In this document: piece by piece, positions 8,253 to 30,903 of the stretch
Numbering within the stretch: position 1 is the first letter of the stretch
How the letters are laid out: each line of letters begins with the position of its first letter
IMG/VR virus record: IMGVR_UViG_3300042564_000329
Span: 1-31,334 of that record
DNA length: 31,334 nucleotides
Reading direction: 5' to 3' (one strand)
Source of the DNA: a virus
The notes under the pieces: model-generated
Databases searched by the model: none
Told to the model about the DNA's origin: nothing
The model's input: only the letters and a program-made list of their open reading frames with translations
Made by a program: the position numbers and the translations under genes

Positions 8253-8846
8253 TTAAACAGAATTCACAGCAGCTTTGTAGTGGTGTTCGTTGATACGAAC
8301 AGACACAACTACATACGCGTCAGTGAGGGAGTCAGTGATTTCATATCCAAAGCCGGTGATCTGGAATTGACCAGAAGTGGCTTGAATGGCGGTCAGGAAA
8401 GTGTTTGACAAACCTGTTTGTGTTGAGCCACCAGGAGAGGCGACTGTCCAATCACACTCTTCGCCGACAGCTGTTTGCACAGTTGTACCAGCAGAAGGGT
8501 TGTTGTATTGAACATCAAACAGTGTTTCAGGGTCATCATACACCCAAGCTGTGATCTCAGTCCCAGTCGTGCCAGAAGGCCAGAAAGGAGAGATTGAAGG
8601 CTTGCCGCTGGCGTCCAAATACTGAACACCTGCGAAGATGCCCAACAAAGAAACTCCATCGGTAGTGCCTGAACGAGTACCGTCAGACGTGCCGAGTTGA
8701 ATAACGCCGTTGTCAGTCAACTTAACGGGGTCACCGCTAAAAATGTTGGCTGCGTAGGCGCTGGCGATAACGTAGGCTTTCGGGCGCATCTGACCACTGT
8801 TGTGGTAAGACGCACGAAAACCAAAGGGTGCGCTTATCGAAGACAT
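8253..8846 (-). CDS. Capsid decoration / stabilisation-like protein (197 aa)
   Basis: 197 residues beginning MSSISAPFGFRASYHNSGQ, beta-rich and without Cys except one in EECDWTV. The opening ISAPFGFRxxYHxSGxxRP is a pattern I associate with a conserved virion protein encoded just upstream of the major capsid gene in many environmental phages. The domain SGDPVKLTDNGVIQL...LLGIFAGVQY resembles capsid-coating proteins. AGGAG precedes the ATG at 8846. The next gene's Shine-Dalgarno overlaps this gene's stop region, so it should be co-translated with the capsid protein. The decoration role is inference. Confidence 0.6.
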   Translation of the reverse strand: MSSISAPFGFRASYHNSGQMRPKAYVIASAYAANIFSGDPVKLTDNGVIQLGTSDGTRSGTTDGVSLLGIFAGVQYLDASGKPSISPFWPSGTTGTEITAWVYDDPETLFDVQYNNPSAGTTVQTAVGEECDWTVASPGGSTQTGLSNTFLTAIQATSGQFQITGFGYEITDSLTDAYVVVSVRINEHHYKAAVNSV

Positions 8847-8875
8847 AATTGCTCCTAATGGATTAAAAAGTTGCG

Positions 8876-9406
8876 TCAGGAAAGATCAAACTGAGCTTCC
8901 CGCTGTTGCCCTATTTCCATATTGCCGTCTCCCATGGTCAAGCGCGACTTAGACGTACGAGCTTGCTGCTCGAGGAACTCAGCCGTGTCGGTGAGTTTCT
9001 CTTCTTCACGCAGGGGTGCATCGTGATGCGCCTCCTTCATGTATTTCTCATAAAGAGAAATAGGCAGCTTAAAAGCCAACATCTCATTCACCCCAATGAA
9101 CCCCACCCAGTCACCCGTCTTAAGGGTTGCGTATTCCCAGCCAGGAACGTCTTCTGGCTTCAAAGGCTCGTAGCCTAAGCGGATCCGCATCTGGATCGAA
9201 TCACGAGGGTTAGTCGTGGTCAGCCAGCAACAATGCCAGCCGGAGAGTTTCGGTAAGTCCGGTAAAGAGGACTGAAAAAACTGCTGACGGAACATTTCAA
9301 CCCGCTCATCTTCGGTCACCTCGCGGTTTTGTGTTACTGCGCGATCTAACATCGCACGATTCTCACGACCTTCTCCTGCGGATTTCTTCAAGCGTTCGTC
9401 TGTCAT
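8876..9406 (-). CDS. Conserved phage protein of the head module (176 aa)
   Basis: 176 residues: a charged N-terminus (EGRENRAMLDRAVTQNREVTEDERVEMFR), a compact core (LSGWHCCWLTTTNPRDSIQMRIRLGYEPLKPEDVPGW), then KTGDWVGFIGVNEMLAFKLPISLYEKYM, and a helical tail with EEEKLTDTAEFLEQQ. The core recalls unnamed proteins found between scaffold and capsid genes in other phages. No enzyme motif is visible. AAAGGAGCG precedes the ATG at 9406, and a good promoter lies 30-60 bp upstream, so it is the first gene of the capsid transcript. Confidence 0.65.
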   Translation of the reverse strand: MTDERLKKSAGEGRENRAMLDRAVTQNREVTEDERVEMFRQQFFQSSLPDLPKLSGWHCCWLTTTNPRDSIQMRIRLGYEPLKPEDVPGWEYATLKTGDWVGFIGVNEMLAFKLPISLYEKYMKEAHHDAPLREEEKLTDTAEFLEQQARTSKSRLTMGDGNMEIGQQREAQFDLS

Positions 9407-9436
9407 AATACTCGCTCCTTTCAGCGATTGAAACCA

Positions 9437-9465
9437 ATTATAGGGTTTGAAAATTAAAAAGCCAA
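9437..9465 (-). promoter_or_regulatory. Sigma70-like promoter for the capsid genes
   Basis: On the minus strand TTGGCT (9465-9460) and a perfect TATAAT (9442-9437) are separated by exactly 17 bp. Transcription would start near 9430 and give a leader of about 24 bases that includes the AAAGGAG site of the 176-aa gene. The -35 block reads TTGGCTTTTT, like the other promoters here. Confidence 0.7.
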
Positions 9466-9479
9466 ATCATTCAAGCGTT

Positions 9480-10436
9480 TCACGCTTTGTTAGTACGGTC
9501 GTACTCGGCGTAGCGCTTGACGTATTTCATGCGCAACACTGGATCATCCCACACGCCAGCCTCAATCAATGCCTGCTTGCGCTCAGGACTGACGTAAATT
9601 TCTTTACGCGTAGAAGCCGGTGCGTGCTCACGTCCGGAACCCACTGCGGGACCACCGCGAGGAGTGCGTTCCTCCCTAGAGTCACGGCGTTCATTCTTGA
9701 ACTTTTCAGGCAATCGGCGGGCAGCACGCTTGCGCAATTCATCCCAGTATTCCTCTGACTGTGGATTGTAACCGTCCTTGGCTAATGATTGGTCAATAGC
9801 GATAACAATCGCAGAGTCTTCATCGCGACCCTGTGAGTCGTACCATGGATTCTCTTTGATGAACTCATTAGCGTAATGCATGGTCATGTCATCAAGCTGC
9901 TGACCCTGTGGCTGGGGGCGCTGTTGGGCGGCTTGTTGCTTGGCGTACTGGAGCTGCTGCACTTTCTGCATAGCTTGATCGCGGTACTTGAGCGCCTGAG
10001 CTACGTCCTTGCCGTTGCCCGCCTCCACCGCCTTAGCGATGACGCGCTCCGCCATCTCGGCTTCCTTCGCCGCGCTAGCAATGTGTGCGTCGTACGTGCC
10101 GAGGTCTACTTGATGCGCTCGGTGCTCTTGAAGAGATACGCGGCGCTCAAGGTCATCATTTCGTTTACGCAGGAAGTCCAGCTCGAGTTTGTCGCGCTTG
10201 ATGGCTTGATCGCGGCGGTCTTTACGCTCGAGCTTTTCAAGGCGGCGTCGCTCACGTATCGCCTCTCGCTCGTCGTCATTGCCGTCTTCGGCTGCTGAGG
10301 ACGCGGTTCGTTCATCACCGCTGTCATCTGAATCATCGTCCTGCTCTTCCTGTCTGTCGGTTAGTTTTGACTCGTCTTCGACGATGATGATTTCTTCACC
10401 ACCGCGTTCGTCGTCTTCTTTCATCACATTAGCCAT
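9480..10436 (-). CDS. Probable capsid scaffold protein (318 aa)
   Basis: 318 residues, very polar. Residues 5-65 are strongly acidic (EDDERGGEE, EEQDDDSDDSGDE). Residues 65-190 are predicted coiled coil or helix rich in Arg, Lys, Glu and Gln (RRRLEKLERKDRRDQ, EMAERVIAKAV, QQLQYAKQQAAQQRPQPQ). Residues 190-260 hold a conserved-looking block (MTMHYANEFIKENPWYDSQG). The C-terminus is basic. This composition and a place just before the capsid genes are typical of P22-type scaffolds. AAAGGAG stands before the ATG at 10436. No protease is encoded nearby, which fits a scaffold that leaves the shell intact as in P22; that part is inference. Confidence 0.7.
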   Translation of the reverse strand: MANVMKEDDERGGEEIIIVEDESKLTDRQEEQDDDSDDSGDERTASSAAEDGNDDEREAIRERRRLEKLERKDRRDQAIKRDKLELDFLRKRNDDLERRVSLQEHRAHQVDLGTYDAHIASAAKEAEMAERVIAKAVEAGNGKDVAQALKYRDQAMQKVQQLQYAKQQAAQQRPQPQGQQLDDMTMHYANEFIKENPWYDSQGRDEDSAIVIAIDQSLAKDGYNPQSEEYWDELRKRAARRLPEKFKNERRDSREERTPRGGPAVGSGREHAPASTRKEIYVSPERKQALIEAGVWDDPVLRMKYVKRYAEYDRTNKA

Positions 10437-10449
10437 AAATCATCTCCTT

Positions 10450-10863
10450 TCAGATGAATGCTCGGATTGCCAACGGGTCGCCAGTTACCTGCCCGATGAT
10501 GTCCAAGTCGTTAAAAATCACAAACATAGCAGATCCGTCAGTGTCAGGAATCTTGACTTCCCAACGATCACCGCCGTACTTAGCCACGCGAACGTATTCA
10601 CCGGCTTTGCACCACTCACCCTCTGGCCACGTCTTCATGTCATTGCGGTTCTTGAAAGCCAGCGGACCCAAGGCAACCACTTTGCCAATCTGAGTGTTCC
10701 ACTTCTCTGTATCATTAGTACCCGCGATGTCAATAATAATGCCACCAGCTGATTTCTTTTTCGGTGTGCGAATCTGAATCAGAACACGGCTCCCGAAAGG
10801 CTGAATTCCAGCATCTACTGCTGGGAAAGCCTCCGCCATTGCGTCCTCATAAGTCATTGTCAA
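10450..10863 (-). CDS. GroES-like co-chaperonin
   Basis: About 135-137 residues with the Cpn10 pattern: PFGSRVLIQI near the N-terminus, a mobile-loop-like TPKKKSAGGIIID, WNTQIGKVVALGPLAF (GroES G-xV-xxVGxG-like strand), AGEYVRVAKYGGDRWEV, and a closing FVIFNDLDIIGQ. It is longer than the ~97 residues of bacterial GroES because of an N-terminal extension and a C-terminal tail. It would cap the host GroEL and help fold the capsid protein, as T4 gp31 does. A TTG at 10863 lies 7 bases from AGGAG, whereas the first ATG (10857) lies 13 bases away, so TTG is the better-placed start. It overlaps the preceding 65-aa gene by 17 bases. Confidence 0.75.
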   Translation of the reverse strand: MTMTYEDAMAEAFPAVDAGIQPFGSRVLIQIRTPKKKSAGGIIIDIAGTNDTEKWNTQIGKVVALGPLAFKNRNDMKTWPEGEWCKAGEYVRVAKYGGDRWEVKIPDTDGSAMFVIFNDLDIIGQVTGDPLAIRAFI

Positions 10864-11044
10864 GGTTTTTCTCCTGGTCTAGAAGGTTTAAAAGTACGTC
10901 GATTGCTGCCTCATAACCAGCAACCATTCCCACGCGATACCCGTACTCAAAAGTATCGCGAGTCTGGGGTCGTCTCAAAGCGGTAACAGCGAATGACTGC
11001 TGTTCTGCTTTCAGACGATTCAGAAGTTGAGACTCAATGTTCAT
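10847..11044 (-). CDS. Small conserved phage protein (65 aa)
   Basis: 65 residues, helical and amphipathic: MNIESQLLNRLKAEQQSF, then TFEYGYRVGMVAGYEAAIDVLLN, then an acidic tail. The FEYG-x-RVG-x-xAGYEAAIDVLL block recurs in small phage proteins beside portal and scaffold genes. I know no function. Its ATG overlaps the TGA of the 45-aa gene by four bases, and its 3' end overlaps the co-chaperonin gene, so all three are probably translationally coupled. Confidence 0.65.
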   Translation of the reverse strand: MNIESQLLNRLKAEQQSFAVTALRRPQTRDTFEYGYRVGMVAGYEAAIDVLLNLLDQEKNLDNDL

Positions 11045-11178
11045 GCAGGAGTCTTAGGTGTAGAAGGCGCAGCGGGCAGGGTCTGACCGTTCAGCTTCTC
11101 ACCCGCCGCTAGGCGGTGTTTCTGTTTCACAAATGCGCCAGTCATAGGGACTGTGCCAGGAGTAGGTTTATCGCTCAT
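11041..11178 (-). CDS. Very small protein between portal and 65-aa gene (45 aa)
   Basis: A 45-codon gene. It starts MSDKPTPGTVPMTGAFVKQK and ends in an Ala/Pro/Thr-rich tail. GAGGAAAACATC precedes the ATG at 11178, and its TGA overlaps the next ATG (ATGA), which is the pattern of true genes in this phage. It starts 11 bp after the portal stop. I do not recognise the family; the sequence looks flexible apart from the central KQKHRLAAGEKL. Confidence 0.6.
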   Translation of the reverse strand: MSDKPTPGTVPMTGAFVKQKHRLAAGEKLNGQTLPAAPSTPKTPA

Positions 11179-16850: not shown

Positions 16851-18411
16851 ATGGGTTTATCCTCGGTTTGTTAGAGATGCGAGGCTCGTCGATATCTTTT
16901 GCTTGAGGTAACTCAAACCATCCATCATTCTTGAGATAAATGATAGCTTGCGTAAACGTGTCAACATAATCATCATGCTCCGCTACTGGGAACTTGCCCA
17001 GTTGTTTGAGGAAAGACGCCGCCCAGCTCACTGGTTGACCGAGGTTCTTCTTTGACTCCGGTACCCACAGCAACCCCAGCTCAAGGGTCGGCGCGGCTTG
17101 GTGCGCCCGTGATACCTTGTCAGCCTGACCTGGATTATAGCCCACTGCTGGCACTTTCGCCAAGCGCAAGTCCTGCAACAATGATTGCCCACTCGCCTTC
17201 GCTTCCACCAAGATACGGTCAGGGCGTTTCGCTCGGGAGTATGGCGAGTCCTTCGTCATCCCTCCGTATTCAGTCGTCCAGTCTTTCACGGCTCGTGCTC
17301 GCAGGTCTGGATAGCTCAGGTGTTCATCCCACGCATCAATCAACATCGCATTGCGTGCGCCCTTGTGCGTGAACATCGCCCAGACCGAGCAGGCGGTCGG
17401 GTCGCCGGTCGTCTTCTCGGTGAACGCACAGTCGTATGACTGCAGTATGTACTCAAAGGGCGGCAAGCCTGATGACGCTGGCCAGAGCCTGAAGTTGTTG
17501 ACCTTCAGGATCCCGCCCTCGCTCGGCGTGGGGTCTTGCTGTAGCTGACCCGCCGTGCCGTATGTACCCAGCAGTTGCTTCAGCGTGGTGATCTCTTTCT
17601 CGCCGAACCGCTCGGGGCAGATCAACTCGCCTTTCTTCTTGCGGGGGTCGTACACACCGAGGCTGGTCTTGCGCACCTTGCCGTCCCACTCTGCCGGAAT
17701 GCAGATATGCTCCCAGCCCTTGATGTCCTCAAGTATGTGCCCGCTGATGTCGCGCTCGTGTAGGCGCTGCATGACGGTCACCATCGCATCGGTCTTCGGG
17801 TTGTTCAGTCGGGTAGACCATACCATGTCAAACCATTCAAGGTCTGACTCTCGCATCACCTCCGACTGCGCGGCTTGAGCGCCGTGCGGGTCGTCAAGTA
17901 TCAGGCGCGAGCCGCCCTCACCGGTCGCCGTGCCACCGACTGAGGTCGCGAGCCGGTAGCCGGTCTTGTCGTTCTCAAAGCGCTGCTTAGCGTTCTGATC
18001 TCCGGCGAATGAGAACATATGCCCCCACCGCTCTTGATACCATGGGGACTGCAACAGTCGCCGCGTCTTCAAGTTGTCACGTGTGCTCAGGTTGCCGGAG
18101 TACGAAGCGCACAGGAACTTCTGAGCAGGGTCAGTGAGCCACTCCCACGCTGGCCACATCACCGACACAATCGTAGACTTTGAATGTCGCGGCGGGATAT
18201 TGATGAGCAGGCGATGAATGTCACCGGCGCTCACGGCTTCAAGATGCTCGCAGATTGTCTCAATGTGCCAACTCGGTATGAACGGGATTCCTGGTTCAAC
18301 CACGTGCCACGACTGCTTCACGAACTCGTACAGCGAACCCGACGCCGCTCGGCGCTCTTGCTCTCGCTTGACGAGGTCAAGCATGACAGCGGGGTTCATT
18401 GGTGCGTTCAT
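16840..18411 (-). CDS. terL: Terminase large subunit
   Basis: 523 residues. The ATPase part has an adenine-binding-like HIETICEHLEAV, Walker A INIPPRHSKS (70-79; the usual motif has Gly where this has Ser), Walker B RLILDDPH (169-176) and a coupling motif VMQRLHERD (213-221). The nuclease part has QSYDCAFTEK (D327), RILVEAKASGQSL (E403) and HDDYVDTF (D480/D481/D484), the three acidic groups of the RNase-H-like headful nuclease. It cuts and pumps DNA through the portal. The ATG at 18411 overlaps the small-terminase TGA by four bases; a second ATG 15 bases further on is possible. The overall pattern matches Terminase_6-like enzymes of environmental podoviruses. Confidence 0.95.
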   Translation of the reverse strand: MNAPMNPAVMLDLVKREQERRAASGSLYEFVKQSWHVVEPGIPFIPSWHIETICEHLEAVSAGDIHRLLINIPPRHSKSTIVSVMWPAWEWLTDPAQKFLCASYSGNLSTRDNLKTRRLLQSPWYQERWGHMFSFAGDQNAKQRFENDKTGYRLATSVGGTATGEGGSRLILDDPHGAQAAQSEVMRESDLEWFDMVWSTRLNNPKTDAMVTVMQRLHERDISGHILEDIKGWEHICIPAEWDGKVRKTSLGVYDPRKKKGELICPERFGEKEITTLKQLLGTYGTAGQLQQDPTPSEGGILKVNNFRLWPASSGLPPFEYILQSYDCAFTEKTTGDPTACSVWAMFTHKGARNAMLIDAWDEHLSYPDLRARAVKDWTTEYGGMTKDSPYSRAKRPDRILVEAKASGQSLLQDLRLAKVPAVGYNPGQADKVSRAHQAAPTLELGLLWVPESKKNLGQPVSWAASFLKQLGKFPVAEHDDYVDTFTQAIIYLKNDGWFELPQAKDIDEPRISNKPRINPYAA

Positions 18412-18989
18412 TTCTGTCCGGCTTTAGCGAGCAGGCGGCTCATGTTCTCAAGCTCGTCATCACTGAGGTTCTTCAGGTCTACCGCCGCGAGCGCGATCGG
18501 ACCGCCGTTTGAACCGGTGTGCTCTTGTGTGATCTTGTCGCCGTAGACCTTCGGTAGCATCTTGCTGAGCATCCACTTGCGGGTGTCAATCTGAACCCGC
18601 TTGTGCGCGATGACGTCGCTGTTGAGCGGCATCAGCATCTGCTTGAGCAGGGGTTCACCCTTCTCATCAAACATCGGGTCGCCCTGCGGGTCGAGCTTCT
18701 GCACCGTCACCCACTCGTGGGTCTTGTCGCTTAGTGCGACGATCTCGTCGGCGAGGAGGGCGTAGCCAATCTCTCGCGCGTGCGCGTAGTCCTTGCCCAC
18801 GCCGCTGGGGTCTTTGTTGACCCACTCAAGAAAGGTCGCGACAGAAGGCATCCCCTCTGCTTTGCAGATAGACTCAAGAGAGCGCCCGAGCTTCAGCTCC
18901 TCGCAGATCTGAGCAGAGACGACCTCGCGGTCGTACTTGCGTGCTGACAGGTGCACTGCGCCTTTGGTGTTGTGTTTTGTGGTAGCCAT
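18408..18989 (-). CDS. terS: Terminase small subunit
   Basis: About 193 residues from the ATG at 18989 (MATTKHNTKG). An upstream TTG extension would overlap the promoter -35 and is rejected. The N-terminal part (REVVSAQICEELKLGRSLESICKAEGMPSVATFLEWVNKDP) is a helix-turn-helix DNA-binding segment typical of small terminases. YAHAREIGYALLADEIVALSD follows, then VIAHKRVQIDTRKWMLSKMLPKVYGDK, a block I recognise from this family, and a short acidic C-terminal helix (LSDDELENMSRLL) likely to contact TerL. It would recognise the packaging site on the concatemer. It is the first gene after the repeat-rich control region and overlaps terL by ATGA. Confidence 0.85.
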   Translation of the reverse strand: MATTKHNTKGAVHLSARKYDREVVSAQICEELKLGRSLESICKAEGMPSVATFLEWVNKDPSGVGKDYAHAREIGYALLADEIVALSDKTHEWVTVQKLDPQGDPMFDEKGEPLLKQMLMPLNSDVIAHKRVQIDTRKWMLSKMLPKVYGDKITQEHTGSNGGPIALAAVDLKNLSDDELENMSRLLAKAGQK

Positions 18990-18996
18990 GGTTTTG

Positions 18997-19025
18997 ATTA
19001 TACCTCTCTGTTTCAAAAAAGACAA
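18997..19025 (-). promoter_or_regulatory. Sigma70-like promoter for terminase and head operon
   Basis: On the minus strand TTGTCT (19025-19020) and perfect TATAAT (19002-18997) are 17 bp apart. The expected start site (about 18990) falls next to the terS ATG at 18989, which would give a leaderless or almost leaderless message. The only GAGG stretch lies within the promoter, upstream of the expected start site. The -35 extends as TTGTCTTTTTTGAAA. Confidence 0.7.
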
Positions 19026-19069
19026 GTTAGAAAGTGATCGGTCGTTCGTCTATATAGAGAGGGACCGAA

Positions 19070-19343
19070 CGAACGATTACTTTCGCCTACAAAATGACAA
19101 AGTCTGAAAATTCCCGAACGATTACTCCGAACGATTACCCGAACGATCACCTCACAGAACATACGAAACCCTCACTCCGTTAGGCTCTTGAGACGTTCGG
19201 TGAACCTTCTGATCGGCTCCGGAGAGAGGACGACAGTCCCTCTCCTCCGGCGTTCCGAACGTATCCAGACAAGGCAAAAACCTAATCGTTCGTTCGGCGC
19301 TATCGTTCGAACGATTACCCGAACGATTAAACCGAACGATTAC
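19070..19343. repeat. Array of CGAACGATTAC boxes in a gene-free control region
   Basis: The stretch 19026-19348 has no convincing gene. It contains CGAACGATTAC or one-mismatch forms at 19070-19080, 19115-19125, 19128-19138, 19140-19150, 19308-19318, 19320-19330 and 19333-19343 on the plus strand, plus an inverted copy at 19282-19292 and a partial inverted copy at 19301-19309. Within each cluster the copies are 12-13 bp apart, so they would lie on about the same helix face. The two clusters flank a strong hairpin. They may be operators for a phage regulator or iterons of an origin; the sequence cannot decide between these. Confidence 0.85.
19219..19250. other. Large stem-loop between the repeat clusters
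   Basis: CCGGAG-AGAGG-AC pairs with GT-C-CCTCT-C-CTCCGG, a stem of 13 pairs with two single-base bulges and a GACA loop. Neither strand has a T run after it, so it does not look like an ordinary terminator. It could be an origin or regulatory structure, or act in the RNA at the end of the early transcript. Confidence 0.6.
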
Positions 19344-19348
19344 TTTTC

Positions 19349-21583: not shown

Positions 21584-23719
21584 TTAAATGCCGAACTTAC
21601 CGCGTTCGATTGCGGCAACCACTTCTTCATTCACACGCAGGTAGTGGTTGGCTCGTCCCTGCGGCTTCTCTAACTCAATGCGCTCGAGCGATCCGTCATT
21701 CAGCAGGCTGGTAACGGCGCGTTCTTTGCGCTCTTGAGATGCTTTGACGCCGCCCTGTGCCACGGGCAGACGTTCATAGTAGGAGCGGCTCTTGCCCGCA
21801 TCACGGCGTACGAGTTCGATTATGTCGTCGCAGATACGTGACCATTGCTCCTGCTCTTTTTGTTCTTTGCGATCTTCTTTCATCTGGGTGCGCTCTCCTG
21901 GTTTGAGAGGGCGGGCGACTGAGTGGCTAAACCAGATCTCTTTGTCGTAGCCTAGCACGTCCTTATGGTTCTCGCGGTTTGACACGAGGTCAAAGGTGAG
22001 TTCAGCGAATGCCGTGGGGAACCTGACCTTTGTCGCTTTGAGCACGCGGGGGGCGTCGGCATGCTCACCGTCTTTGAACACTGTGTAAACCCCTTGCGCA
22101 TCACCCGTCCACGCTGACGCACCGCGAGGTGAAAGGAAGTCTGACTCTGATGAGCCGAGCGCCTTTGCCGTATGACTGACGATGATTATGGGGAAGGTGG
22201 CGAATGCCTGCTTGATGTACGCCATTGCCCGCCCGACTTCAGCATTGTCGTTTTCGTTCTCCAAATCAAATACCGCGTTCGCAGTATCAAACACCACCAG
22301 AGGCAGCGCCGCGTGATACGTACCATCAGCCTTCTCATTGTCTACCGTCCATTCTTTGTACTCCTCAGCTACTTGAGCTACTATTTTGGGATCCATGCGT
22401 TGCGCGTTGATGACTCGCACCCGCTCATCAAAGTCACGCGTATGCATGCCGGTGTAGCCCCACGAGTACAGCGAGTAAATGACCCGTTGAACCTGAACGA
22501 CCGACTCGGTTATGATGATGACGTTGCGCCTAACGGCGGGCTTGAGCGTGTAGTCATGCGGGCAGAGGTGCGCAGTGGCTAACGCCATAGGCACGATGAG
22601 GGTTGTCTTACCGACACCAGGAGCACCGGCGACCACGTTGACACCGGTTGACATAAAGTCCTCGTACACGTACTCAAAGACATTAACTTCACCCGCGCCT
22701 GAGGCGACCGAGTTCTTGAGACTGAGCGGGTGAACTGCGGGTTTACCGTCAGGAGTCGTTGTAGCTTGTGGTGCTTCGTGAGTGTTGCCTGCCCAGCCGT
22801 TGTCAATCGCCATGCGGAAGATTGAGCGGTAAGTGATTGAGTGTGGGGTGCTGATGTCACGCTCCCACTTGCGGCGTTGCGCGGCGGCATCAAACTTGTC
22901 ACTGGTCGCCGCCCACTCTGTCCAAATTTTGTAGCCATTCTCGCCGTAAGGCTTGAGCACCATACCGACGTTGACCCACGTTGTGTAGTCATCAGCGTCA
23001 ACGTGTTTGAGCGCCGAGCGCAGGTCATCAAAAGTCTGAGCCGTAGCCACCGGAACGCCACCGCGCTCGGTCAGGCTATAGTTCACTGGAGGTCGTGCCT
23101 TACTCGCTATCAGCTGAGGCAAGGGGGAGGGTTTTGCCGGACGGGTTTGACTGAGCGGCGAGCGCCCTTGTTGCCATTTGTAATCACCGGAGGGTCCGAG
23201 CGTAGGAGCGACGCAGATGTAACCATGATGCTTCAGGTCAAGCCCTTTGCCCAGTGTGCCAGGATACGTCATGTCCTCATCAGCGGTGAACAGCCTATGC
23301 TCCCCGCCGCCTTGAGTCACCGCCGTACAGTCGGAGTGCATGACGCCGTGTTCGGCTTCTAGCTCTGCCAGTGACTCAACACCGCCATTCTGCGGGTCAA
23401 TGTCCAGCGCCAGCAGACCTGACTCAGCGAGGGAGATACCGATACCCGCGTCGGGGTCAGTTGCCCACCAGTCGCGGATGACTTGTTCATCAACAGTTGC
23501 GTCTTGATGCCCATGCGGAACTAACTCAGACTGGGGGTGCTTGCCCGCCTTATGACCTTTCTCAGTATTAGGGCGACCGCACCGGCATTGGCCATGCGAG
23601 TCCACCGACCACACGGGCAACACGTACCAACCGAGCCTTGCGTAAGCTAACGCGAAGTCTAAAGTTTTTGGTCCGTCAGTGTCTACTGCCCACACGTGCT
23701 TAGGCGTCTTGCTCGTCAT
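21584..23719 (-). CDS. Primase/polymerase - RecA-like helicase fusion (711 aa)
   Basis: Three domains can be seen. Residues 20-190 are a bifunctional primase/polymerase (Prim-Pol): AYARLGWYVLPVW, GKHPQSE, LLALDIDP with metal ligands D106 and D108, and TQGGGEHR with H141. Residues 228-310 match a PriCT-2-type primase linker (ALKHVDADDYTTWVNVGMVL, then KIWTEWAATSDKFD and RKWERD). Residues 345-580 are a RecA/RepA-like ATPase with Walker A GAPGVGKTT (366-373) and a Walker B LVVFDTA. The C-terminal ~90 residues are charged and may hold a winged helix. It should prime and unwind DNA at the phage fork. Its ATG overlaps the helicase TAA by one base (TAATG). Confidence 0.9.
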   Translation of the reverse strand: MTSKTPKHVWAVDTDGPKTLDFALAYARLGWYVLPVWSVDSHGQCRCGRPNTEKGHKAGKHPQSELVPHGHQDATVDEQVIRDWWATDPDAGIGISLAESGLLALDIDPQNGGVESLAELEAEHGVMHSDCTAVTQGGGEHRLFTADEDMTYPGTLGKGLDLKHHGYICVAPTLGPSGDYKWQQGRSPLSQTRPAKPSPLPQLIASKARPPVNYSLTERGGVPVATAQTFDDLRSALKHVDADDYTTWVNVGMVLKPYGENGYKIWTEWAATSDKFDAAAQRRKWERDISTPHSITYRSIFRMAIDNGWAGNTHEAPQATTTPDGKPAVHPLSLKNSVASGAGEVNVFEYVYEDFMSTGVNVVAGAPGVGKTTLIVPMALATAHLCPHDYTLKPAVRRNVIIITESVVQVQRVIYSLYSWGYTGMHTRDFDERVRVINAQRMDPKIVAQVAEEYKEWTVDNEKADGTYHAALPLVVFDTANAVFDLENENDNAEVGRAMAYIKQAFATFPIIIVSHTAKALGSSESDFLSPRGASAWTGDAQGVYTVFKDGEHADAPRVLKATKVRFPTAFAELTFDLVSNRENHKDVLGYDKEIWFSHSVARPLKPGERTQMKEDRKEQKEQEQWSRICDDIIELVRRDAGKSRSYYERLPVAQGGVKASQERKERAVTSLLNDGSLERIELEKPQGRANHYLRVNEEVVAAIERGKFGI

Positions 23720-25272
23720 TATTCTGTTTCTCCGTTGAAATACTCCTCAAGCACATTCCAGTAGCGCCCAGACTTGCGTACAGTGACCGCGACCGGTTGT
23801 CGAGCGCCTTTCAGTTGCCAAGTGAGTGAACGAGCAGGGGAGGGTAAGTTTACCGCAAGGGCGCGTTTTTTGAAAAACGCTACCGTTTGCGATGTGGGTG
23901 TTTCGGTGCTGATGAAAGTAGAAGCATCAATACGCGCCCCCTCATCTGTGATGCAGGCGTACTGCACGAGCAGCACCGGTTGATTGGGGTTACGCCGCGT
24001 AAATACTGCGACGCAGTTGACGTTGCTGACCTTGGCGGTGATGACCGAGTCATCAGTAACCTCGAGTCCGGTCATGGGGTCAATGGGTATGATGGTGCGC
24101 ACACCAGGATAGACTTTGCGCTCTTTCTTGACGTAAGGCTTAGTGGGCACTGCGGGTAGCTCTTCCGCTTCAGCGTCAAGGCGCTCGCGGTAGAACTTTT
24201 CATACATGTCTACGCCGCCTAAGCGTTGCAGGTTACCCACAAAGTCAAGCACGAGGCAGTTCTTTTTGCTGTCGTGTAGGCGAGTGCCCCGACCTTGAAT
24301 CTGAACCCACAGAGAGGAGGAGAGAGTTGGCCTCAGGCACACGATGCAATCCAGCGCGGGGAAGTCAAAGCCGGTGGTAATCATATCAACCGAGCAGAGC
24401 ACACGGGTCTCGCCGCTCTGGAACCGGTTCATGATGTCATCCCGCTCAGTACCCTTCATGCTACCCGCCATGACTTCTGTTGACCAGCTCGTCACATAGG
24501 CGATAGCTTCAGCGGCACGCACGGCGGCGGTAATGGTCGGGCAATAAACCGCGAGGTGCTTCCGGTTGCTGGCGAGGGTGAGCAATGACTCAGCCATTGA
24601 CTGAAGCCAGTCCTCCATCAACATCTCATCTACCTCGGTCTGAACGAAGTCCCCACTCACGCTCACGTTGTCTAGGTTGAGCTGAAACGCGGTCTCAACA
24701 CCTACTAGCGGGCAGAGCCACCCGTCGTGAACGGCGCGGGGTACAGGGTAGTTATAGGCGAGGCGGTCAAACCAGAACTGCTCCCCGTCACCGTAAATGA
24801 TCCCGTTGTCCATGCGCCACGGCGTAGCGGTCATAGCGACGCGTTGAGCAGCAGGATAACGGCGCAGTATTGACTCATAGAGCGTCGGCTCGCCCTCGTT
24901 GTGCGGGACGCGGTGAGCTTCGTCTATAATGATGAGGTCAGGCGCTTGCATTTCAGCTAGGACACCCATCATGCTTTGAATGGTGCCGAAGGTAACTTGC
25001 CCGTCAACGTCTTTGCGGTTCAGTCCTGCGCAGACGATTGCCGGCTCTAGCTCGCTATAACGAGTGTAAGTGGCAGCGTTTTGTTTGACGAGTTGCTGAA
25101 CGTGGGTGAGTACCCAAATGTTTTTGCCAGCCGCCCTATAGAGGCTAGCTATAGCGGCGATGATGAGAGACTTGCCCGTACCGGTGGCGAGTTGAAGCAC
25201 AGGGTTGACCCCTTTCCCTAGCGCGGCTATAGCGGCGCGGGTTGCTTCGTCTTGGTAGGGTCTGAGTTGCAT
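23719..25272 (-). CDS. SF2 DNA/RNA helicase (DEAH, ResIII/UvsW-like)
   Basis: 517 residues. Motifs in order: Q-like LRPYQDEA (3-10), Walker A ATGTGKS (29-35), Ia VLTHVQQLV, II DEAH (117-120), III TATP (148-151), IV VYCPT, V TTGFDFPALD (299-308) and VI QIQGRGTR (324-331). This set is typical of ResIII-family helicases in phages, as in UvsW or RadD-like proteins, which remodel forks and recombination intermediates. A further ~150 residues at the C-terminus are not assigned. It is the first gene of the leftward transcript. GGAG stands 10 bases before the ATG and a promoter 35-65 bp upstream. Confidence 0.9.
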   Translation of the reverse strand: MQLRPYQDEATRAAIAALGKGVNPVLQLATGTGKSLIIAAIASLYRAAGKNIWVLTHVQQLVKQNAATYTRYSELEPAIVCAGLNRKDVDGQVTFGTIQSMMGVLAEMQAPDLIIIDEAHRVPHNEGEPTLYESILRRYPAAQRVAMTATPWRMDNGIIYGDGEQFWFDRLAYNYPVPRAVHDGWLCPLVGVETAFQLNLDNVSVSGDFVQTEVDEMLMEDWLQSMAESLLTLASNRKHLAVYCPTITAAVRAAEAIAYVTSWSTEVMAGSMKGTERDDIMNRFQSGETRVLCSVDMITTGFDFPALDCIVCLRPTLSSSLWVQIQGRGTRLHDSKKNCLVLDFVGNLQRLGGVDMYEKFYRERLDAEAEELPAVPTKPYVKKERKVYPGVRTIIPIDPMTGLEVTDDSVITAKVSNVNCVAVFTRRNPNQPVLLVQYACITDEGARIDASTFISTETPTSQTVAFFKKRALAVNLPSPARSLTWQLKGARQPVAVTVRKSGRYWNVLEEYFNGETE

Positions 25273-27465: not shown

Positions 27466-28170
27466 ATGTCAACACGAATCCACTGGTCTACAGCCGAGCG
27501 AGCGCTCATCAATCAAGCGCTGACTGAGGCGTTCATCGCTAGCCCCATGCTCACCCGCCGCGAAGCCCTTAGCCGCGCCCAGCTCGTCCTGCCGTATGAG
27601 CGCCGCCGTAAAATCACTGATCAAGTCGCCTATAACGAGCGCCCTGTGATTGAGGCTGCGCAGGTTGCGGCTGAAAAAGCACCTAAGCCTGAACCCGCGC
27701 CGGTGAGCGCCCCTGTAGTTGAGCAGCCGCCGGTTAACCCCCTGCTCAAGATCTTTGACGACCTACTAGACGCGCTAGCTGACCGCATAGCCGAGCGCCT
27801 GCGTCCGCAGATGACTCAGGCTGAAGTCAAGCAGCACATCGACGCTGAGTTTGACACGCAGTTCAAGCGCTACAAAGTTGAAGCTACGCCGCCTAAGCCC
27901 CGTAAGCCCTCAGTGTTGATCGTCGGTTTGAACGGCGTTCAGATGACTAGCGTCAGTCGGAACTATCCCGATGTCAAATTCACATTCATGACGGGTGAGG
28001 AAGCCGCGAGCCGTAGCCAGTTCCGCGCTGATCATACAATTTTGATGACTAAGTTTATCAATCACAGCGCTCAGAATAAGTACCGTCAAGCGCCTAACCT
28101 GCATTACTGCAATGGTGGTGTGTCTGACCTGTCAACTACGTTGTACATGATTCAGAAGGCAGGCGTATGA
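27466..28170 (+). CDS. Two-domain early protein with DUF2325-like C-terminus (234 aa)
   Basis: 234 residues. The N-terminus (HWSTAERALINQALTEAF, then TRREALSRAQLVLPYERRRKI) looks like a Myb- or wHTH-type helical domain. A Pro/Ala/Val-rich linker (residues about 68-90) leads to a helical stretch. The C-terminal ~85 residues (SVLIVGLNGVQM, TFMTGEEAASRSQF, HTILMTKFINHSAQNKY, LHYCNGGVSDLSTTLYM) have the Rossmann-like pattern of DUF2325-type domains. GGAG precedes the ATG two bases after the previous gene. I infer a DNA- or nucleotide-binding regulator but cannot prove it. Confidence 0.65.
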   Translation: MSTRIHWSTAERALINQALTEAFIASPMLTRREALSRAQLVLPYERRRKITDQVAYNERPVIEAAQVAAEKAPKPEPAPVSAPVVEQPPVNPLLKIFDDLLDALADRIAERLRPQMTQAEVKQHIDAEFDTQFKRYKVEATPPKPRKPSVLIVGLNGVQMTSVSRNYPDVKFTFMTGEEAASRSQFRADHTILMTKFINHSAQNKYRQAPNLHYCNGGVSDLSTTLYMIQKAGV

Positions 28171-28731: not shown

Positions 28732-28952
28732 ACGAGAACGCGCCTGTATTGGCGGATGTCAAGTGGTTCACCACTGGTAAGGGTATCGTGGGCATCGCGG
28801 CTATGAGGACTGAGACAGGTGACCTCACTTTCCGCATCTGCCCAGTTGATGGTTTTAACGAGGTGATTGACGCTAATCTGGTCATGTCACATGGGGCGGT
28901 TTTCCCTGAGGACGCCGGTTACGCAGTATTCGCACGAGAGGATTCAGAATGA
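28728..28952 (+). CDS. Small protein leading the modification genes (74 aa)
   Basis: 74 residues, beta-rich and acidic (VKWFTTGKGIVGIAAMRTETGDLTFRICPVDGFNEVIDAN, then HGAVFPEDAGYAVFARED). It overlaps both neighbours by ATGA, so it is co-translated with the 142-aa protein and the PLP enzyme. I do not recognise the family. The context suggests an accessory subunit or a regulator of the modification enzymes. Confidence 0.6.
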   Translation: MNENAPVLADVKWFTTGKGIVGIAAMRTETGDLTFRICPVDGFNEVIDANLVMSHGAVFPEDAGYAVFAREDSE

Positions 28953-29905
28953 ACACAGTATTTCCTGAGTTAGCTATTGACCGTAACGTGGTCAAGTGGG
29001 AGCAACACCTCGGCACGCACACCCCGTGGGAGAACCGCAAGGGTATGTGGTTCAAGCGCGATGATTACTTCGCCCCCCTCGGCTACAGTGGTCCGAACGG
29101 CTCAAAGATGCGCCAGCTGATTTGGTACGTCAACAAGTTCCGTCAGGGTAAGACCCACATCGTTACTGGTGCTAGCATTCAGTCTCCTCAGCTGAGCATG
29201 AGCGCTATCGTTGGTGCACATTACGGCTTACGCGCTCGGCAGATCGTCTATAGCAAGCCTGAGACTGTGTTGCGTCATGAGAACCCTCGCATTGCCTACG
29301 GCTTTGATGCTGAGTTTGAGTTCGCTTCTGGTCCGTACAACCCTATCCTGCAGCGCAAGGTGGTTGACCTGACGCAACCGACTTCGCTCGTTGTTGAGTA
29401 CGGCATCACTGTGCCGCATGACCGCTACCCTGAGGAAGATGTGCGTAAGTTTCACGAGGTCGGCGCTCATCAGACCACTAACATGCCGCCCGAAGTCAAG
29501 CGCCTCATCGCCCCTGCTGGGTCGTGTAACTCGCTGACGAGCATCATGCTCGGCTTGAGCCGCGACTCGCATAACATTGAGGAGTTGTTCACTATAGGGA
29601 TCGGTCCCGACAAGCGCGGTTGGATGCGCCAGCGTCTCGCCTACATCGGCGTGGACGTTGATAAGCTGCCGTTCAAGTGGAAGCACTATAGCCTGCACGA
29701 TAGCGGCTACAGCAAGTATAGTGATCACTTTACCGGTGAGAACTATGACGGCATCAAATTTCACCCGACCTACGAGGCTAAGATGTGGCGCTGGTTGACA
29801 CACCATGACCAGTTAGATTATGATGACCAGACCGCCTTCTGGATTGTGGGCAGCGCCCCAGACACGAAGATTGTTGAACCCTTTTACACTAGGAAAGCAT
29901 CATGA
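28949..29905 (+). CDS. PLP-dependent fold-type-II enzyme (ACC-deaminase/D-cysteine-desulfhydrase-like), DNA-modification linked
   Basis: 318 residues. WFKRDDYFAPLGYSGPNGSKMRQL (31-57; key residue K53) matches the PLP-lysine region of ACC deaminase and D-cysteine desulfhydrase (KRxDxxxxxxGGNKxRKL). TGASIQSPQLSMSAIVGAHYGL (73-94) matches the substrate loop and following helix (GGVQSNH...A). APAGSCNSLTS (188-198) fits the glycine-rich phosphate-binding loop. Known members act on amino acids; here the gene is ATGA-coupled to an amino acid:DNA transferase and a DNA kinase. It may therefore act on the amino acid after attachment to thymine, or make the donor. A plain metabolic role is the alternative. 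Confidence 0.75.
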   Translation: MNTVFPELAIDRNVVKWEQHLGTHTPWENRKGMWFKRDDYFAPLGYSGPNGSKMRQLIWYVNKFRQGKTHIVTGASIQSPQLSMSAIVGAHYGLRARQIVYSKPETVLRHENPRIAYGFDAEFEFASGPYNPILQRKVVDLTQPTSLVVEYGITVPHDRYPEEDVRKFHEVGAHQTTNMPPEVKRLIAPAGSCNSLTSIMLGLSRDSHNIEELFTIGIGPDKRGWMRQRLAYIGVDVDKLPFKWKHYSLHDSGYSKYSDHFTGENYDGIKFHPTYEAKMWRWLTHHDQLDYDDQTAFWIVGSAPDTKIVEPFYTRKAS

Positions 29906-30903
29906 AAGATTACCGCCTGCCGGAAAACCGGTCAGAGTATTTCACCGCGCTTTACAAGATGAACCTTGAGCACGGGGTAATGCCAGGACTCGTCTACCTG
30001 TACATGCCTGAACTCGCTCGCCGCTACAAGTGGAACGCCGAGCAGAAGCTCTGGTTCGCATTCTTGAACGGCATGACTCAGAACCCAATCACGTCGCTGC
30101 GCATATTTGATCAGCTGCCGATGGTTCCCCCAGCTAGCGCCGCGCTGACTAAGTTTGAAGAATGGTTCAACGCCGAGTGGGACACGCTTCAGTTTGACAC
30201 CGACCGCCGGTATCAAAAGAAAGACACACTGCCCGCTATCAAGGCTTACGCTAAATTGGTCGAGGAGTTCGGCTCTCAAGAGGCGATGCTGACTGGTAAG
30301 CCCTACGAGACGCTGTGGGACATCGTACGTAACCGCTACCACAGCTTTGGTCGCCTGTCATCGTTCAGCTACCTTGAGTATGTTCACCTGAACGGCTACG
30401 GCGCTGACTGTGATGACCTGCTGTTTAGTGACAAGTCAGGTAGCAAGTCACACCGCAACGGGATGCTGTTCTTGATTGGCAAAGATGAGCTGGTCTGGGA
30501 CAAGCGCCTACCTAACGGGCAGGACGGCAATTACCCTAAATTCAACTTGATGTGCGGCTTCCTCGCGGCGGGAGCTGATAAGGTCATTGATGACTTCAAA
30601 GCCGCTCACCCTGATGTGCCTAATGCGGGTCGCTTCACTATGGAGTCAAACCTCTGCACGTTCAAGAATCATTTCTTCGGTCGTCGGTACCCAGGAGTCT
30701 ACGCCGACATGGCACAAGAGCGTATTGAGTGGGCTGACCTACGCGGTCAAGACGCATACACCGACGTGTTCAAAGACATGCGGTCTCAACTGCTGCCCGA
30801 CTGGTTGCGTGTTGAATGCGAGAGTTCACCTATGACTGTGAAGCAGAAAGCCGCCGTGTTCCCTGAGACCGGTTCACCCTATAGAGCGGAGTACTTCCTA
30901 TGA
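29902..30903 (+). CDS. Amino acid:DNA transferase (ADDT / aGPT-PPlase group)
   Basis: 333 residues. The opening YFTALYKMNLEHGVMPGLVYLYMPELA, then KLWFAFLNGMTQNPITSLRIF (residues 12-70), is one I recognise from the family first called alpha-glutamyl/putrescinyl thymine pyrophosphorylases and later assigned as amino acid:DNA transferases. Further blocks are FGRLSSFSYLEYVHL, DGNYPKFNLMCGFLAAG and CTFKNHFFGRRYPGVYAD. In phages with hypermodified thymidine these enzymes displace pyrophosphate or phosphate from activated 5-hydroxymethyl-dU in DNA with an amino acid or amine. The gene overlaps the PLP and kinase genes by four bases on each side, as expected for one pathway. Assignment rests on recall and context, not a search. 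Confidence 0.75.
   Translation: MKDYRLPENRSEYFTALYKMNLEHGVMPGLVYLYMPELARRYKWNAEQKLWFAFLNGMTQNPITSLRIFDQLPMVPPASAALTKFEEWFNAEWDTLQFDTDRRYQKKDTLPAIKAYAKLVEEFGSQEAMLTGKPYETLWDIVRNRYHSFGRLSSFSYLEYVHLNGYGADCDDLLFSDKSGSKSHRNGMLFLIGKDELVWDKRLPNGQDGNYPKFNLMCGFLAAGADKVIDDFKAAHPDVPNAGRFTMESNLCTFKNHFFGRRYPGVYADMAQERIEWADLRGQDAYTDVFKDMRSQLLPDWLRVECESSPMTVKQKAAVFPETGSPYRAEYFL

Follow-up and report, generated by a model that had tools for sequence, protein, structure and literature searches.

Architecture of the region upstream of terS

The DNA analysed here (the window) comprises the 31,334 bases of one virus record and is probably a fragment, because near-complete relatives measure 54-58 kb. It carries a replication module encoding a DEAD/ResIII helicase and a protein that combines a primase domain (PF09250, Prim-Pol) with PriCT_2 and a RepA-like ATPase matching AAA_25 in Pfam. 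The first of the late genes, terS, encodes an Sf6-type terminase small subunit and adjoins a gene-free space of about 360 bp (18990-19348); the original prediction had rightly noted this space but gave its length as 320 bp. Within it, an 11-base box (CGAACGATTAC) forms two arrays in a stretch of ~300 bases, and a stem-loop lies between the arrays (Table 1).

When the whole window was searched, eight copies of CGAACGATTAC were found at 0-1 mismatch, all within 19070-19343, and no copy with at most one mismatch was detected elsewhere in the 31 kb. Shuffled sequences contained 0.38 ± 0.58 such matches, and none of 100 shuffles reached eight. The prediction of at least seven same-strand boxes plus inverted copies was thus correct; inside the clusters the pitch was measured as the 12-13 bp previously described, and the genome-wide search that had been proposed as a check found the box confined to this stretch of the window rather than scattered. 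The inverted box pair nearest to terS surrounds a short hairpin that is often TTCG-looped in relatives. Beside the central hairpin the AT content exceeds the locus mean by ~6-11 points, an excess that any intergenic region might show.

On its terS side the element is bordered by a sigma70-type promoter. Of 63 non-identical loci, 59 have a -10 sequence close to terS that matches at 5/6 positions or more, in most cases 7 nt ahead of the ATG; across the family (window 18989-19025 and relatives) TATAAT usually stands at this distance from the terS start codon. Judged from this sequence arrangement, the terS mRNA is probably leaderless.

Table 1. Coordinates of the element and associated genes in the window, with variant boxes and stand-alone winged-helix ORFs of relatives
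Feature	Position	Strand	Basis
terS, Sf6-type terminase small subunit; first late gene, adjoins element	18408..18989	-	phrog_1482 E 3.9e-36; PF20901 E 1e-29
terS promoter, sigma70-type, TTGTCT-17-TATAAT; -10 ends 7 nt before ATG	18997..19025	-	sequence
Inverted box pair around short hairpin, terS-proximal	19030..19084	.	sequence; fold
Exact boxes	19070, 19115, 19128, 19308, 19333	+	sequence match
One-mismatch boxes	19140, 19320 (+); 19282 (-)	+/-	sequence match
Two-mismatch inverted boxes	19034, 19299	-	sequence match
Box 1, CGAACGATTAC, outlying	19070..19080	+	sequence match
Cluster A, boxes at 19115, 19128 and 19140 (the last CGAACGATCAC)	19115..19150	+	sequence match
Central structure-conserved stem-loop, GC-rich; two helices joined via internal loop	19206..19261	+	covariance model R1, 68.3 bits (window sequence in training set); covariation
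Inverted boxes 19282-19292 (1 mismatch) and 19299-19309 (2 mismatches)	19282..19309	-	sequence match
Cluster B, boxes at 19308, 19320 and 19333	19308..19343	+	sequence match
Primase-polymerase/helicase (Prim-Pol, PriCT_2, RepA-like AAA_25); proposed initiator	21584..23719	-	Pfam, PHROGs; co-occurs with element
Primase-helicase C-terminal region, predicted winged helix; candidate box reader	21587..21904	-	AlphaFold2 pLDDT 86.6
DEAD/ResIII helicase, same replication module	23719..25272	-	phrog_16 E 6.5e-78
Variant boxes of relatives	ACACGATTA (L103); ACCCGTTA (L152); CACTTGATCA (L157); CTAAATAA (L137); CGAACATTTA (L143); CGAACGTTTA (G013/L162); CACACGGTT (L104)
Stand-alone winged-helix ORFs of relatives	L104:4838-5350; L162:910-1311; L133:7928-8353; L097:11200-11607; L105:13076-13753; L043:4555-5130; L118:13612-14163

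Conservation of the stem-loop and variation of the boxes

Dozens of IMG/VR contigs, from a large uncultured phage family whose members range from 42 to 67% GC, share the element. A pattern of two adjacent boxes was found in 42 IMG/VR contigs, nearly all of which have the same layout upstream of terS. Among near-complete relatives, which measure 54-58 kb, the box core CGAACGATYA occurs at this locus alone, with the exception of G002, which has one extra copy 3 kb from the element; genomes with other box types contain few or no copies. The 101,830-base IMG/VR record G003 is a tandem of two related phage genomes; both the element and the primase occur twice in it, ~57 kb apart. Exact overlaps of 55-127 nt between the contig ends mark five relatives as circular assemblies, which open at varied positions relative to the element. 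Contig ends had looked frequent near the element among L009-L050, but that search was biased toward the element and the observation was discarded.

A search of a phage collection found no isolated phage with a close primase, and Roseobacter phage CRP-901 (TerL 46%) has neither similar repeats beside its terS nor a match to the hairpin model. A search of species genomes gave four matches, the best two being 34-35% identical and the other two weak and partial, so no host is inferred. The family also shares a gene set (window 28949-30903; 8552-11088 in G005, L059) comprising a 5-hmdU DNA kinase-like protein and its helical partner (PF18748 weak, PF18723 strong), a thymidylate synthase homologue and the neighbours g318b and g333; the gene content suggests hypermodified thymidine in the phage DNA.

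The large stem-loop that had been predicted between the clusters is real and fits the family covariance model R1 (Table 1). The DNA fold of the window hairpin alone is unexceptional relative to shuffles (z -1.3), and the structure is established instead by comparative covariation. In an alignment of 22 stem-loops, 86.6% of the cells in the stem were paired, a figure favoured by construction since the structure was derived from folds of the same sequences. Double changes are the stronger evidence: 14 of the 20 stem pairs had changed on both sides, and double-change cells numbered 61, as against 20.3 ± 4.6 in shuffles, with 0/500 shuffles as high. The covariation score was 0.363, whereas shuffles gave 0.137 and slid controls did not exceed 0.085. 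The bulge and internal loop of the hairpin are conserved as well. The covariance model finds one strong match per genome, even where the box differs, and also recognizes sequences outside its training set, with 71 bits in L162, 75 bits in L191 and 73 bits in L242, and further matches in L133, L138 and L174.

Relatives with variant boxes (Table 1) encode primases 51-86% identical to that of the window and carry the other box around the same kind of hairpin, the array-hairpin-array design being retained with ACACGATTA, ACCCGTTA, CACTTGATCA, CTAAATAA, CGAACATTTA and CGAACGTTTA. L097 has another repeat, GATCAGTC, and gave no match to the hairpin model. At L222:3115-3420, AACCCGGCGAA arrays flank an unrelated hairpin directly after a divergent primase-helicase gene.

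Linkage of the element to the primase-helicase gene

The element travels with the primase-helicase gene and not with the adjoining packaging gene. When TerL-anchored loci with 4 kb or more of upstream sequence were compared, it was found in 7/7 loci with the primase gene and 1/21 without it (Fisher p 7e-6), and the contig of this sole exception ends 2.8 kb past the element. In the compact relatives L099, L106, L111, L113, L115 and L153 no more than tens of bases lie between the primase stop codon and the start of the element; the corresponding gap in the window is 2.2 kb and contains several small genes. As judged from sequence, box type likewise follows the primase-helicase and not TerS. When same-box and different-box pairs were compared among 31 dereplicated genomes, the AUC was 0.90 for the primase, 0.85 for its winged helix and 0.68 for the neighbouring helicase, as against 0.61 for TerS, 0.57 for TerL and 0.54 for the DNA-binding part of TerS, these values being descriptive because the pairs are not independent. 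The box tracks the whole primase, with the winged helix performing no better than the rest, and shared ancestry contributes to this linkage.

Three candidate roles had been put forward in the original prediction, of which origin iterons are now best supported, a pac/TerS site is disfavoured, and operators of a late-gene regulator are possible. If the element were a packaging site (pac or cos), TerS would bind both box clusters and terminase would cut in or near the hairpin, as at phage P1 pac, whose cut region, beside pacA, lies between two short-repeat clusters. We recognize the same plan here, two short-repeat clusters around a central region beside a terS gene, and the element always lies upstream of terS, even in the L027/L109 group, where the primase lies several kb off in inverted orientation. 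However, the repeats do not follow TerS as this model would predict. The same box is retained in L011, L016 and L022, whose TerS proteins have a very different DNA-binding part and share only the C-terminal tail with that of the window, and among same-box pairs identity in the DNA-binding part falls to 12%. Moreover, no element is present in L189 and L190 (TerS 74% and TerL 90% identical to those of the window), which have coding sequence directly upstream, in L185 (TerS 75%, TerL 95%), or in L253, despite its same type of TerS-TerL. The poor tracking of box type by TerS and the varied positions at which circular contigs open also argue against packaging. Together, the swaps of TerS and the absence of the element beside close TerS-TerL pairs rule out a pac/TerS site as the best reading, and we regard it as unlikely.

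Alternatively, the region could regulate the late operon: a phage protein would bind the boxes as operators and so repress or activate the terS promoter. The conserved promoter at the element's edge and the boxes arranged at helical pitch upstream of its -35 are consistent with such control. Yet an operator would need less than a covarying hairpin and some ten boxes across 300 bp, the element is missing in relatives with closely related terS-terL, and the family-wide proteins that were checked included no conserved transcription factor, making an operator an improbable explanation. Because the sigma70-type promoter borders the element, it is nonetheless possible that the region has a regulatory function, in addition to serving as an origin or in place of it. 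Finally, the hairpin could act as RNA, serving as a leader, small RNA or processing signal on transcripts that continue from the primase operon into terS. The strong covariation with its conserved bulge and internal loop, and a better fold of the hairpin region as RNA than in shuffles (z -3.5), would suit this role, but it is very unlikely given that the hairpin region matched no Rfam family, that no U-tract follows the hairpin on either strand, that terS mRNA from the terS promoter lacks the hairpin because the promoter lies downstream of it, and that DNA boxes and hairpin are kept together. No intrinsic terminator was called at the central hairpin.

A candidate origin of replication

The primase-helicase ends in a region of 106 residues for which AlphaFold2 predicts a helix-turn-helix followed by a two-stranded wing (pLDDT 86.6). 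Most of its best structural matches (Z about 9) are winged-helix proteins, MecI and MarR among them, a resemblance that indicates fold and not function. The origin-binding domain of P4 alpha was absent among the structural neighbours listed, which decides nothing, and a PDB sequence search with the primase alignment gave no match. One segment, GGVKASQERKERA, is near-invariant in genomes with the canonical box and often altered in those with variant boxes, with exceptions: L104 and L133 have altered boxes and yet retain the canonical winged-helix motif. As the sole determinant of the box, the recognition helix was rejected, since it performs no better than the primase core.

Stand-alone ORFs resembling the primase C-terminus lie between the element and terS in seven relatives (Table 1). 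L104, L133, G013 and further exceptions to the GGVKASQERKERA pattern have such a separate winged-helix gene, and it is plausible that its product is a second putative box reader that accounts for them; in L043, L105 and L118 the stand-alone gene occurs together with the canonical box. A 234-aa protein of the window (27466-28170), which the original prediction had listed for a gel shift and which has a weak DUF2325 match, was not found in the close relative G005. It is an unlikely box reader, since G005 has nearly the same element.

Several replication systems offer precedents. Replication of plasmid pRN1 depends on a 100-nt stem-loop that lies downstream of the PrimPol gene, pRN plasmids keep the stem-loop structure while its sequence varies, and Bordetella phage BIP-1 has a similar stem-loop behind its replication gene (PMC4234260). 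At other origins, repeats are bound by the winged helix of P4 alpha, and iterons are combined with primase-recognised hairpins in RSF1010 (PMC4234260). PrimQH primases, which have RepA-type ATPases and a C-terminal winged helix, have been proposed to recognize origins (PMC5862659).

The element resembles pRN1 and BIP-1 in having a single stem-loop site just downstream of a PrimPol-helicase-winged-helix gene, with structure more conserved than sequence. It differs in that pRN1 has an SF3 helicase and no iterons, whereas here the ATPase is AAA_25/RepA-like and two iteron arrays flank the stem-loop; in the window, unlike the pRN1 type, other genes also lie between the stem-loop and the primase. 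With P4 alpha the candidate initiator shares the union of primase, helicase and C-terminal winged helix in one protein and the short-repeat arrays at the origin, but the P4 primase is of the Toprim type and no sequence relation is shown. As expected of an iteron origin in the style of P4 alpha or PrimQH, the array of short repeats is unique in the genome and linked to the gene of the candidate initiator. The P4 origin has its two repeat clusters kilobases apart and is not known to include such a hairpin. RSF1010 oriV (RepC iterons, RepA helicase, RepB' primase, ssiA/ssiB hairpins) similarly combines iterons, priming hairpins and a RepA-type helicase, although it uses three separate proteins and two hairpins where this family has one fused protein and one central hairpin. 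Thus, the element joins iterons and a stem-loop in one site and is neither a P4 alpha system, because the primase is Prim-Pol and not Toprim, nor a strict pRN1 system, because AAA_25 stands in place of SF3 and iterons are present.

Because the proposed initiator ends in a predicted winged helix, and in view of the primase linkage, the stem covariation and these precedents, we infer that the element is probably the replication origin of this phage family, a composite of iterons and stem-loop. The GC-skew check suggested with the original prediction gave this reading no support: the skew runs with gene direction, its turning point is close to the helicase/early-gene junction, and it shows no switch at the element. 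The L027/L109 group, in which the element has stayed beside terS at a distance of several kb from the inverted primase, also speaks against an origin. In the proposed mechanism, the winged helix of the primase-helicase would read the boxes, a task that may fall instead to the stand-alone paralogue encoded beside the element in some relatives. Binding at the two arrays would load the RepA-like helicase and the DNA between them would be opened, after which the central stem-loop could fold in the single-stranded state and serve primer synthesis or helicase loading. Activity of the adjoining terS promoter may be coupled to initiator binding.

More tentatively, the element may exemplify a class of composite origins. 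Each would have, between two winged-helix iteron arrays, a single obligatory stem-loop that a fused PrimPol-RepA initiator uses in single-stranded form. Origin specificity in this class would change when the winged-helix domain is duplicated as a separate gene next to the origin, whose product then reads the boxes, as suggested by L104, L133, L097 and G013, among other relatives.

As a caution from this locus, repeats that lie upstream of a terS gene should not be taken for a pac site by default. Little is known about the origins of phages that have archaeo-eukaryotic-type primases, and in the literature searched a stem-loop had been suggested for one, BIP-1. This uncultured family constitutes a natural experiment in which the boxes vary, the hairpin is kept by compensatory change, terminase genes are swapped and the element stays with the primase, variation that makes the roles of winged helix and hairpin directly testable.
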